Source: a virus
Virus record (IMG/VR): IMGVR_UViG_3300023184_009672
Location: 1-61,200 of that record
Reading direction: 5' to 3' (one strand)
Length of the DNA stretch: 61,200 bases
The notes under the pieces were generated by a model, which was given only the letters and a program-made list of their open reading frames with translations, ran no database searches and had not been told where the DNA came from. This document shows positions 20,283 through 39,947 of the stretch, in pieces. A program made the position numbers and the translations under genes. Positions within the stretch are counted from its first letter, which is position 1. Each line of letters begins with the position of its first letter.

Positions 20283-20441
20283 ATGCAAGAAACACAAACA
20301 TACACTTGGTCGGTAAAGGCAACAAGCGGTCAGCTAGTATTAGCCCCGAAGGTATATCCTACTCTTCGTGGTGCGAAAATCGCCAGCAAGCGTTTCGCAA
20401 ATAAGACTGGTGGATCGGTTGTTTCAGTTTCAGCCAAGTAA
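20283..20441 (+). CDS. hypothetical 52-aa protein
   Basis: 52 aa (MQETQTYTWSVKATSGQLVL...). GC content and codon use are visibly higher than in its neighbours, suggesting high expression or recent acquisition. No family recognised. Confidence 0.6.
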   Translation: MQETQTYTWSVKATSGQLVLAPKVYPTLRGAKIASKRFANKTGGSVVSVSAK

Positions 20442-20494
20442 TCAAATAGTAGGATATATGGTTCAATCCCAGTATCCTATTATAAATTAAAATT

Positions 20495-20641
20495 ATGTGG
20501 ACTCCAATAGAAATCTTCGCTTTAACTTTCCTTTTGAATCATTCGCCAATGGCATCCGAAAGACTTTCAGTAAAAGAAGTAATGCAAAATCGTGAAGCTC
20601 TATCTCTTATAGAAAGTGTTGGTTTAAGAAATGACTTTTAA
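20495..20641 (+). CDS. hypothetical 48-aa protein
   Basis: 48 aa (MWTPIEIFALTFLLNHSPMA...). A TAAATT at 20483-20488 is six bases before the ATG, but the -35 is poor. Overlaps the lipoprotein gene by 11 bases. No family recognised. Confidence 0.45.
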   Translation: MWTPIEIFALTFLLNHSPMASERLSVKEVMQNREALSLIESVGLRNDF

Positions 20642-25515: not shown

Positions 25516-26034
25516 ATGAGCAAAACATCTAAATCAAAAAAAATCAAGATGCCAAAGATGGATGACATCATGGCACAAATTAAAGCAGACCAACTAAAGA
25601 AAAAAGATAAAGTAAAGTATCATTCTAATCTGTTATTCGATACTCTAGCACAAACAAAAGTCTCTTCTATTGAAGTATCTTTTGAAGGTTGCGGAGACTC
25701 TGGACAAATCGAAGCAGTAGATTATACAGACGCTAATAGCAAGCGCATAGACGAAGCATATCTTAATAAGATTATTGTTAAGGGTTCAGAGAAAACATCC
25801 TATCACCAATGGGACGAAAAGAAAAAAATGCTGGTCAAGACAGAGCCAAGAGAAGGAAATATTAGAGAGATCGTTGAAGAGATATGCTATGATAAGTTAG
25901 GTGCAAGCCACGGCGGTTGGGAAATCAACGAAGGTAGCTACGGAACATTCCTCTTTGATGTTGCGGCTCGCAAGGTGAGTCTGGAATACAATCAGAGGAT
26001 AGAGGAGGTTCGGACTAGTGAGGAGAGTTTCTAA
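25516..26034 (+). CDS. DUF6878-like protein
   Basis: 172 aa. VSFEGCGDSGQIEAVDY in the middle and the C-terminal HGGWEINEGSYGTFLFDV match my recollection of DUF6878, an uncharacterised family found with DUF6915 in mobile elements and phages. The next gene is indeed DUF6915-like. Function unknown. Confidence 0.6.
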   Translation: MSKTSKSKKIKMPKMDDIMAQIKADQLKKKDKVKYHSNLLFDTLAQTKVSSIEVSFEGCGDSGQIEAVDYTDANSKRIDEAYLNKIIVKGSEKTSYHQWDEKKKMLVKTEPREGNIREIVEEICYDKLGASHGGWEINEGSYGTFLFDVAARKVSLEYNQRIEEVRTSEESF

Positions 26035-26384
26035 TGGCTAATCCATATCACCATTCATTATCGTCAGCAAAGAAGTGGGGTGGTTCAGCAGAAGATTACC
26101 AGAAGATTCACGATTGGTTTGATGAGAGTAAGATGATGATGGCAGACTTTCGCCATCGTGCCTTACGACATCACGCCGAAGGTATCTTTATGTGTGAGAG
26201 GATATTTGGTAACACCATCACACTATCTAATGGTAAAAAGATTCCTACTAGATGGGTTGGCGAACAGCACATAGCAGAGGACTTGGGATTCATTCCATCT
26301 ATGCAAGATTGGCTTAAACATATTATGCCAGAACCTTGGATGGGCAAGACCAAGAAACTTGACATTGAGAAACAATTAGCGTAA
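26034..26384 (+). CDS. DUF6915-like protein
   Basis: 116 aa. HHSLSSAKKWGG, DYQKIHDWFDESK, RHRALRHHAEGIF and WVGEQHIAEDLG are the conserved blocks of this family. Many histidines suggest metal binding. Begins on the last base of the DUF6878-like stop, so the two are translated together. Confidence 0.65.
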   Translation: MANPYHHSLSSAKKWGGSAEDYQKIHDWFDESKMMMADFRHRALRHHAEGIFMCERIFGNTITLSNGKKIPTRWVGEQHIAEDLGFIPSMQDWLKHIMPEPWMGKTKKLDIEKQLA

Positions 26385-26528: not shown

Positions 26529-26644
26529 TTTGGTCATCGGTTGTTGCTTCCGTTAATAGCAAATCGTTTGGAAGTACCGAATAACTTCCACTATTTTTAT
26601 TTTTTTGTTCTACAATCTGTTGTATTTGATGTATAATAGAGCAT

Positions 26645-26770
26645 ATGAGCAAGAAACAAATGGAGAAAGAACTAAACTATGGTGATTGTAATAATCTTTT
26701 CTGTTTTTGTAGTAGTATTCTTAAAGAAGTTATGGGAATAAAAGTTGACAAGAAAGAGAATTCAAAGTAA
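26645..26770 (+). CDS. hypothetical 41-aa cysteine-containing protein
   Basis: 41 aa with CNNLFCFC. TATAAT lies seven bases before the ATG, with a weak -35. Its 3' end carries the promoter of the next RNA gene. Confidence 0.45.
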   Translation: MSKKQMEKELNYGDCNNLFCFCSSILKEVMGIKVDKKENSK

Positions 26771-26773
26771 TAT
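26745..26773 (+). promoter_or_regulatory. promoter of candidate ncRNA 1
   Basis: -35 TTGACA (26745-26750), 17-bp spacer, -10 TAATAT (26768-26773). Predicted start about 26780, at the first base of the outer stem; no start codon follows. Confidence 0.7.
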
Positions 26774-26779
26774 AGTAAT

Positions 26780-26975
26780 AGTAGAAGGCACACTCTTATT
26801 GCTAGAGAGTGCAAAGAAAGTTCGGTAGGGTTGATCTCCTAAAGAACTTTAGTTCCTTCTACGAAACTTTCGCACCTCGATCAAGGGTTGGCTGTAGTAG
26901 ATATTGCGAAATAATTCTACTACCATAAACCTCTTGAGCGTTTGTTGGTATCGCTGAAACCAATATTCTTTTCTT
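26780..26975 (+). ncRNA. candidate ncRNA 1, multi-pseudoknot structure
   Basis: Gene-free, promoter-driven and densely paired. P1 GTAGAAGG/CCTTCTAC (26781-26788/26855-26862). P2 CACTCT/AGAGTG (26791-26796/26806-26811). P3 AAAGTTC/GAACTTT (26817-26823/26844-26850) with inner TAGG/CCTA. P4 GTAGTAGA/TCTACTAC (26894-26901/26916-26923). The P3 loop TTGATC (26831-26836) matches GATCAA (26879-26884), and the P4 loop GCGAAA (26906-26911) matches TTTCGC (26868-26873), giving two pseudoknots. A TTGGT/ACCAA hairpin (26945-26963) followed by T-rich sequence may terminate it. No known class recognised. Confidence 0.6.
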
Positions 26976-26995
26976 TACTTATTTTTAATTTAGGT

Positions 26996-27007: not shown

Positions 27008-27262
27008 ATGAACAGCACATATAAATACATCTCAGATTATGTAAGTAAACCCACACAGTTTTGTTATTTATTAGATTATGTTACTAATGAAAATTCTTAT
27101 TTGTTTGATGTCGATGGAAATAACAAAGATGTAAAGAAGAAGGTGTGGATTGCTAAACAAATCTATCCACATGTCAGTCCTCCTCAAACTACTTATTTCA
27201 GAACACTCAAAGAAGCAAAAGCCGCATTAAAGAGATGGGATGCGAAGTGGGAAAGAGTTTGA
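27008..27262 (+). CDS. hypothetical protein
   Basis: 84 aa; the C-terminus KEAKAALKRWDAKWERV is a basic helix. No family recognised. Confidence 0.55.
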   Translation: MNSTYKYISDYVSKPTQFCYLLDYVTNENSYLFDVDGNNKDVKKKVWIAKQIYPHVSPPQTTYFRTLKEAKAALKRWDAKWERV

Positions 27263-30423: not shown

Positions 30424-30503
30424 TTATAAGTCCTTAACTATCAACGAGTTGCGTCGGCAGGGAGGTTGCGTTTGCAAGTCCTTGATATACAATGAGATAT
30501 ATC
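30424..30503. repeat. hairpin-centre-hairpin repeat, copy B
   Basis: Left TAAGTCCTTAAC...ACGAGTTG, centre GGCAGGGAGGTTG (inverted relative to copies A, C and D), right GCAAGTCCTTGATAT... Ends three bases before the -35 of the next gene. Confidence 0.75.
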
Positions 30504-30505
30504 GC

Positions 30506-30533
30506 TTGACTTTTTATTCTATTATGTTATAGT
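30506..30533 (+). promoter_or_regulatory. leaderless promoter of the 30540 gene
   Basis: -35 TTGACT (30506-30511), 16-bp spacer, -10 TATAGT (30528-30533), six bases to the ATG at 30540. Confidence 0.75.
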
Positions 30534-34093: not shown

Positions 34094-34360
34094 ATGAACA
34101 AAATCAAAATCGCAATCATATACGCAACCTCATATCTGAAACACTTCGTCCTTTTCCTCTTGGGGCAAAGGTATTTAATCGAATACAAACCTTATGGCGG
34201 TGAAGAAGCCTTCACTTACATTATCAGCAAGCCTAGCTCTTTTAAGGTGAGCAAAGCTGGCAACAAGCTCTTCACGAGTTTCTGCTTCTCTGGTCGTATG
34301 GATTCTGGCGTGAAGCAATTCCGCTATGATCGTATCGCTGGTGGTCTCTCGCCAGTCTAA
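34094..34360 (+). CDS. hypothetical protein
   Basis: 88 aa. Hydrophobic, positively charged N-terminus (KIAIIYATSYLKHFVLFLLG), then a beta-rich part ending VKQFRYDRIAGG. No family recognised. Stand-alone unit with its own repeat, promoter and terminator. Confidence 0.6.
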   Translation: MNKIKIAIIYATSYLKHFVLFLLGQRYLIEYKPYGGEEAFTYIISKPSSFKVSKAGNKLFTSFCFSGRMDSGVKQFRYDRIAGGLSPV

Positions 34361-34413
34361 CAACAGAGAGATTAGGGGGTTATTATTAGCCTCCTAGTTT
34401 AACATATAGAAAG

Positions 34414-34439
34414 GGCGAGGAGAAATCCTCGCCTTTTTT
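34414..34439 (+). terminator. rho-independent terminator
   Basis: GGCGAGGA/TCCTCGCC (eight pairs) closed by a GAAA tetraloop and followed by six Ts. Confidence 0.9.
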
Positions 34440-34441
34440 AT

Positions 34442-34469
34442 TTGACTTATAGTTTAGTTATGGTACTAT
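34442..34469 (+). promoter_or_regulatory. promoter of candidate ncRNA 2
   Basis: -35 TTGACT (34442-34447) directly after the terminator, 16-bp spacer, -10 TACTAT (34464-34469). Predicted start about 34475; no start codon follows. Confidence 0.7.
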
Positions 34470-34472
34470 ACA

Positions 34473-34650
34473 GATAGTTCTTTTCTATTATTCGATGGAT
34501 CGGCGTGGTAGCTGTGAGTTTGCAATAACAACTCAGTAGAAACTGGAGACACGCAACAGAAACAACTTTAGGAGACTATCATCCAAAGATTTCTGTCTGA
34601 GCCGAAAGGCGTAGACGAGTTGGGGTAGCGTCCAACACCATCGAGTATAG
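34473..34650 (+). ncRNA. candidate ncRNA 2, branched RNA with pseudoknot
   Basis: Gene-free and bounded by a terminator plus promoter. P1 CGATGG/CCATCG (34493-34498/34638-34643). P2 GCGTG/CACGC (34503-34507/34550-34554), capped by TGAGTT/AACTCA (34515-34520/34530-34535). P3 CAGAAA/TTTCTG (34557-34562/34590-34595) with inner CTTT/AAAG and GGA/TCC. P4 GTCT-GA-GCC-GAAA-GGC-GT-AGAC (34595-34616). P5 GTTGG/CCAAC (34619-34623/34632-34636). The P3 loop ACTATC (34575-34580) complements the 5' end GATAGT (34473-34478), a pseudoknot. No known class recognised. Confidence 0.65.
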
Positions 34651-34651
34651 T

Positions 34652-34849
34652 TTATATTTTATTGCGCCACTTGTCTCTGTGGAAACAAACCCAACTTAAT
34701 AAAGCTTTTTCAAAACCAATATCATGTCCTGCTTTTTCACTTTCAATCCATTTGTGCTTTAAGATTTCTTCTCTTTCGCTCAAGAAGTTTTTATATAATA
34801 ATGAATGACTTAATATACGATCCATATCTTGTTTAATATTATCACTCAT
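34652..34849 (-). CDS. conserved protein with HKWxxSE motif
   Basis: 65 aa. EILKHKWIESEKAGHDIGFEKALLSWV..HRDKWR is a pattern I recognise from short conserved bacterial and phage proteins of unknown function. Convergent with candidate ncRNA 2. A GTGTAATATA on this strand (34866-34875) lies 17 bases before the start. Confidence 0.6.
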   Translation of the reverse strand: MSDNIKQDMDRILSHSLLYKNFLSEREEILKHKWIESEKAGHDIGFEKALLSWVCFHRDKWRNKI

Positions 34850-34875: not shown

Positions 34876-34891
34876 AAAGTTTTTTATAGTA

Positions 34892-34970
34892 TGTAAGTTA
34901 TTCATCATTAACGAGTTACGCAAGCAACCTCCCTGCAGTTGCAAGTCCTTGATGGTCAATGAGATTTAAA
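34892..34970. repeat. hairpin-centre-hairpin repeat, copy D
   Basis: Left TGTAAGTTATTC...AACGAGTTACG, centre AACCTCCCTGCAGTTG, right GCAAGTCCTTGATGGTCAATGAG followed by ATTTAAAT. Ends 12 bp upstream of the -35 of the ArdC-like gene. Confidence 0.8.
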
Positions 34971-39869: not shown

Positions 39870-39947
39870 TTTAAATCTCGTTCACCATCAACGAGTTACA
39901 GCTGCAGGGAGGTCGCTTTTGTAAGTCGTTAATGATTAAGGATTTAG
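39870..39947. repeat. hairpin-centre-hairpin repeat, copy J (minus orientation)
   Basis: Starts 12 bp upstream of the 39857 -35. Contains CTCGTTCACCATCAACGAG and GCAGGGAGGTCGC. Nearly identical to copy K over its first ~70 bases. Confidence 0.8.

Follow-up and report, generated by a model that had tools for sequence, protein, structure and literature searches.

A pseudoknotted RNA, probably of a new family, in a lineage of uncultured tailed phages

Introduction

T4-like phages make small stable RNAs, called C and D or species 1 and 2, which are encoded near tRNA genes and whose function is unclear. Trans-acting small RNAs are also found in phages and prophages, with their own promoter and a 3′ hairpin followed by a T-rich tail. 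GOLLD and ROOL are large phage RNAs that form cages and are often located near tRNA islands (PMC12286853).

We analyzed a stretch of viral DNA of 61,200 nucleotides (IMG/VR record IMGVR_UViG_3300023184_009672, positions 1–61,200), hereafter the window, in which a locus at 26780–26975 seems to make a folded RNA and no protein. This RNA resembles GOLLD and ROOL in being phage-borne, pseudoknotted, without a protein product, often beside tRNA genes, and more conserved in one part, but it is far shorter (about 190–385 nt, compared with ~570 to >800 nt) and has different helices. It shares with RNAs C and D of T4-like phages that it is a short, discrete, structured phage RNA near tRNA genes, whereas no sequence similarity to them was found in the phage collection; the phage itself is not T4-like by its terminase, yet its RIIA and RIIB match families that include those of T4. 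Its promoter and its 3′ hairpin with a T-rich tail are like those of the phage trans-acting small RNAs, but here the structure rather than a seed region is conserved, and no target was found within the window.

Comparison with known RNA families

Above the Rfam gathering scores, the window matched only tRNAs, and ten loci yielded, besides tRNAs, just a single group I intron, carried by a related viral contig (L019:4762–4937). The long form of the RNA described below had no Rfam match. The lowest Rfam E-value at the locus came from Bacilli-1 (RF02931; 18.0 bits, E 0.14, against a gathering score of 55.6), which has several non-pairs in both stems; we rejected it, like the other weak hits there, as a chance match. 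The covariance models of GOLLD (RF02032) and ROOL (RF03087) each matched 0 of 17 records, in searches where no positive control responded either, and neither reached its gathering score in the window. Among the titles and abstract openings listed by literature searches, none describes this RNA, and no family of Rfam 15 matches it. Since it matches no known RNA family, the RNA is probably new among viral RNAs; it probably forms a new family of a known kind, the orphan structured phage RNAs, outside every named family.

The locus and its predicted transcript

The RNA locus sits among small genes of a phage that encodes RIIA, RIIB, a DNA ligase, and a terminase whose identity to the nearest named ones is only ~24%. 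The features, all on the plus strand, are as follows.

26034..26384, plus strand: upstream gene of the phrog_8143 family (family match), the synteny anchor, outside the RNA
26745..26773, plus strand: promoter, −35 TTGACA, 17-nt spacer, −10 TAATAT (sequence and homologues)
26780, plus strand: predicted transcription start at the foot of P1, the base before P1 (from promoter–ATG spacing)
26781..26788 with 26855..26862, plus strand: P1, 8 bp; 5 of 8 pairs covary
26789..26811, plus strand: P2 hairpin, 26789–26796 with 26804–26811; 2 of 9 pairs covary
26817..26850, plus strand: P3 hairpin, lower stem 26817–26823 with 26844–26850; 6 of 7 lower pairs covary
26831..26836, plus strand: loop TTGATC above the P3 upper stem
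26863..26867, plus strand: insertion site of an extra domain of ~170 nt in L010, L013, L014, and L015
26868..26874 with 26905..26911, plus strand: P4-loop pseudoknot, TTTCGCA with TGCGAAA; kept in 12 of 12 sequences
26881..26888 with 26929..26937, plus strand: P5, one bulged base in the 3′ strand; 3 of 8 pairs covary
26894..26923, plus strand: P4 hairpin, stem 26894–26901 with 26916–26923, 8 bp; 6 of 8 pairs covary
26936..26962, plus strand: nearly invariant 3′ motif GAGCGTTTNTTGGTRTCGCNGAAACCA (homologue alignment)
26945..26949 with 26959..26963, plus strand: 3′ hairpin TTGGT/ACCAA within the 3′ motif, conserved in sequence
26964..26976, plus strand: T-rich tail, probable transcript end; T-rich in homologues too

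An earlier note on this DNA had proposed a promoter without a start codon after it, and no ATG indeed follows the boxes at 26745–26773. All 11 complete homologues carry TTGAC, a spacer of 17 nt, and a TAxxxT −10 box, which is exactly TAATAT in 10 of the 11. Throughout the plus strand of the window, we counted 33 promoter-like sites, defined as TTGAC and a box that agrees with TATAAT at 4 or more of its 6 positions. At 21 of the 33, the A of an ATG is the seventh or eighth base after the −10 box (the second ATG was taken for the site at 30506), and examples include 20248, 27259, 27597, 32510, and 34983. This spacing implies that the phage genes are largely leaderless, and the host may be one that translates leaderless mRNAs well. 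Because the other promoters of the phage put the ATG at this same distance, the RNA is predicted to start at 26780, a position deduced from spacing and not mapped. ATG frames of at least 15 codons are absent in 5 of the 11 members and unshared among the rest, and we rejected protein coding at the locus, as no frame is common to the homologues.

The window holds other elements of interest. A second promoter without a nearby start codon, followed by a foldable stretch, lies at 34442–34670, has copies (92–96%) only in L265, L266, and L267, and is probably a second phage non-coding RNA. Between 29319 and 40000, about ten imperfect palindromic repeats of 64–96 nt are dispersed in both orientations, with GTAAGTCGTTGA...TCAACGAGTTAC around GCAGGGAGGTTG (for example, at 30424–30487, 34891–34954, and 39871–39934).

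The stretch 26780–26975 folds better than its dinucleotide shuffles (z −3.58), only 1 of 200 being as good. Its complement folds just as well (z −3.62), and of 610 plus-strand windows scanned, 25 had z −3.18 or lower, none of them at the RNA locus. Among the homologues, z was −3.47 for L003, −2.45 for L009, −2.16 for L013, −1.65 for L010, and −1.46 for L004. Given the complement and the 25 other windows, fold energy is not distinctive, and the case is carried by covariation and the conserved ends. The scan also brought out very low values at 20301–20500 (−6.9) and 34200–34420 (−8.4), both conserved in relatives; they may be small genes that contain hairpins or terminators.

Homologues and genomic context

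When viral contigs were scanned with the anchor gene (phrog_8143), 58 loci were obtained, and the RNA was present within 1.5 kb downstream of the gene in 13 of them (L002–L006 and L008–L015). A motif scan of viral contigs added the partial member L146, and a second motif scan gave the same 14 contigs. With identical copies counted once (L003 = L005; L010 = L011 = L012), the comparison set comprised 11 distinct complete sequences including the window, plus L146. The clade contigs L007 and L032 stop short of the RNA site, and no RNA accompanies the relatives of the anchor gene outside the clade. A covariance model of the RNA, R1, matched 11 records at E <1e-26 among 48 searched of 59, the 11 omitted being duplicates or short contigs; eight weaker places (E 0.03–0.85) were not accepted as members. 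In 50 further records, made up of 39 of the 80 terminase relatives and 11 of the 19 RIIB relatives, R1 gave no strong match and two weak ones (E 0.016 and 0.037). The model R2 of the 5′ domain matched 11 of 46 records, all of them the window or known members; one further, weak match lay on the other strand of a known member. Blastn detected no match to the RNA in 80 further genome loci. One short and one long homologue found no match in the phage collection, nor did the long homologue in the plasmid collection, and the window's own hits were low-score pieces of 30–50 nt. The RNA belongs to a lineage of uncultured tailed phages, and its conservation partly reflects descent, since all members come from that one lineage.

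A tRNA gene lies within ~330 nt of the RNA in 6 of the 11 distinct members, upstream in L010, L013, and L014 and downstream in L008, L009, L014, and L015; the nearest one in the window is ~5 kb away. In L009, the stretch matched by the RNA model is followed one base later by the start of a tRNA-Asp gene (L009:6814–6887), and both may therefore lie on a single transcript. Upstream of the RNA, the block 26529–26640 is 78–95% conserved in relatives, and its equivalent contains a tRNA-Asn gene in L010, L013, and L014. The sequence that follows the RNA varies: the window has an ORF at 27008, L009 has a directly adjoining tRNA gene, and other members have other sequence.

Covariation in five helices

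The earlier note had drawn P1 and P4 of 8 bp each together with P2 and P3. All four are found and covary in the homologues, and a fifth helix, P5, which the note had missed, pairs in 98.9% of the cells of the homologue alignment. Pairs with changes on both sides were counted on MAFFT alignments, and shuffles and slid partners, used as controls, gave far fewer covarying pairs than P1–P5. We also simulated independent columns on a FastTree tree with a hand-corrected alignment, a simple custom null that takes phylogeny into account and is not R-scape. The 22 covarying pairs compare with a mean of 8.4 under this null, and the 56 doubly changed cells with 13.5; neither count was reached in any of 500 simulations. 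P1, P3, P4, and P5 each gave P ≤0.022 on every measure, and P2 was weaker (P 0.010, 0.016, and 0.086). Helices P1–P5 hence covary beyond the phylogenetic null in the 11 sequences. Many of the kept pairs in P3, P4, and P5 are G-U on the plus strand; they would be C-A mismatches on the other strand, which identifies the plus strand as that of the RNA. We regard the RNA structure as well supported by this comparison and the RNA as real, its fold apparently kept by evolution while the letters changed.

Pseudoknots and alternative pairing

Two loop-mediated pseudoknots had been proposed, and one of them stands. The pairing of the P4 loop with an upstream strand, TTTCGC in the window, is kept in 12 of 12 sequences, including the partial L146; its sequence shows 6 pairs, of which the strand excised by our script caught 5. 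The pairing becomes TTCCGCA with TGCGGAA or TGCGGGA in four other short forms, and in the long forms GCGGAA is matched by TTCCGC or TTCCGT; in the window, L002, and L003, one C is missing from one strand and the matching G from the other. Covariation by substitution was not found for it (P = 0.47 for percent paired), the coupled change being a single indel event, and we therefore consider the P4-loop pseudoknot well supported but not proven.

The other pseudoknot, between the P3 loop and a downstream arm (TTGATC/GATCAA), is not general: it could form with 5–6 bp in 5 of the 11 sequences and with no more than 3 bp in the remaining 6, and the arm GATCAA lies mostly within the 5′ strand of P5, which covaries, so the two pairings compete. 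That strand has further potential partners. In the lowest-energy folds of L004 and L009, it pairs with an upstream TTGAT to give a local hairpin, which L006 and L008 could also form by their sequence; L002 and L003 have no upstream TTGAT partner. These alternative partners make a co-transcriptional switch at the P5 5′ strand possible but unproved. In addition, GCG at 26938–26940 could pair with CGC in the loop of the 3′ hairpin; both are invariant, so no covariation can be read from them.

On the whole, the homologues preserve the pairings and support the central proposal of a promoter-driven, compact, pseudoknotted non-coding RNA.

Exchangeable parts and the 3′ end

RNA length falls into two classes, about 190 nt in the window and about 375 nt in sister phages, with an overall range of 190–385 nt. 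The difference is an extra ~170 nt between P1 and the pseudoknot strand in four complete homologues; this domain has predicted hairpins of its own, and 5 of its 29 pairs covary in the four sequences. The P3 loop is of the TTGATC type in 5 of the 11 sequences and of the GGCGCC type in 6, and it reads GTTGATC identically in the window and the long forms, though their P3 stems differ. Between the window and the ~86%-identical L002/L003, P3 has been exchanged as a block, and this is the main difference.

The motif GAGCGTTTNTTGGTRTCGCNGAAACCA occurs once in the window, where 0 occurrences are expected. It hardly varies, although most pairs of P4 do change, which points to sequence recognition at this end. 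As for the terminator hairpin suggested earlier, there is a conserved hairpin with a T-rich tail, but it has few G-C pairs, was not flagged by a terminator scan, and looks weak as a terminator.

Discussion

From the conservation, the helices, the promoter, and the lack of an ORF, we infer a stand-alone structured phage RNA that would act in trans as a scaffold or decoy and grip a partner through its 3′ domain, a reading to which we assign a probability of about 0.5. Host RNA polymerase would transcribe the RNA from 26780. P1 would close a three-way junction with P2 and P3, and the P4 loop would fold back on the J1/5 strand, locking the P5–P4 arm against the 5′ domain. The RNA would then work by its shape as a folded scaffold or decoy, the domain made of P5, P4, the pseudoknot, and the 3′ motif gripping a protein or ribonucleoprotein, which might be a host factor or a phage protein. 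P3 and the optional ~170-nt domain might be exchangeable modules that fit the RNA to each phage and host. A bolder version, which we think improbable, would make it a new class of phage RNA machine, built from a pseudoknotted core, a 3′ recognition domain that hardly varies, a P3 loop that can be swapped, and the optional domain of ~170 nt; such a machine captures a host ribonucleoprotein or assembles with itself during infection and refolds while it is made. Refolding during synthesis is proposed because an upstream TTGAT, located in the P3 loop in the window and the long forms and in a local hairpin in L004, L006, L008, and L009, can pair with the 5′ strand of P5 before P5 closes.

Other explanations have to be weighed against the scaffold or decoy, and we would rank them, in falling order, as antisense pairing, RNA-only assembly, control in cis, a ribozyme or guide RNA, and an artefact. 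Most phage small RNAs discussed in print are regulators, and the RNA might likewise be a base-pairing small RNA whose P3 loop or another single-stranded stretch targets host or phage mRNA for control of translation or decay. The constancy of GTTGATC above differing stems would suit such a loop, but the loop is of another type in 6 of the 11 sequences, and conservation is highest in the structured 3′ domain. Within the window, no sense-strand complement of at least 11 bases exists, and the one match of 14 bases, on the other strand, is within the range of shuffled RNAs. Antisense pairing is the foremost of the alternatives and still rather unlikely.

Less likely again is assembly of the RNA with itself through self-complementary P3 loops and other loops, which would make it a compact counterpart of the cages that GOLLD and ROOL form. 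The P3 loops hold GGCGCC in 6 of the 11 sequences, TGATCA in 1, and GATC in 4; short palindromes are cheap by chance, however, and these are inherited. The tRNA genes close by in 6 of the 11 members recall the tRNA islands near which GOLLD and ROOL lie (PMC12286853), and the pattern of one conserved half and an optional middle domain could also fit, but the RNA is far smaller and has no similarity to them by Rfam, with the caveat already given on the control for the record searches.

We doubt even more that the RNA is a leader, attenuator, or riboswitch acting in cis on the next gene. It does precede small genes, and ATCAA could switch between the upstream TTGAT and P5, whereas the following sequence differs among members (the ORF at 27008, a tRNA gene, or other), and the 3′ end, which is conserved, belongs to the RNA itself.

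A self-cleaving ribozyme or a guide RNA of the IscB/TnpB/Cas type would agree with the compact pseudoknotted fold and a size within the range of such RNAs, and the earlier note had called the element ribozyme-like. No Rfam ribozyme family or HEARO matched, nothing else points to cleavage, and no repeat or anti-repeat was seen. PF07282 (TnpB/Cas12f) was detected in 0 of 10 records, some of them fragmentary, with a control that responded in 6 of 14 genomes, and IscB was tested only through the RNA families of Rfam. Both roles are accordingly quite improbable. Lastly, a fold due to chance or an element acting as DNA, for instance an origin, which the unexceptional fold energy within the window and the similar folding of both strands would allow, is very improbable against the covariation in five helices, the kept G-U pairs, and the conserved promoter; an origin of replication was rejected, as the GC skew does not change at the locus.

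Conclusions

Phages keep very little non-coding DNA, and an RNA whose helices have been maintained by compensatory change therefore likely matters in infection. The short list of known structured phage RNAs gains with it a family so far unlisted, described here by covariance models, a predicted start site, and two size classes.
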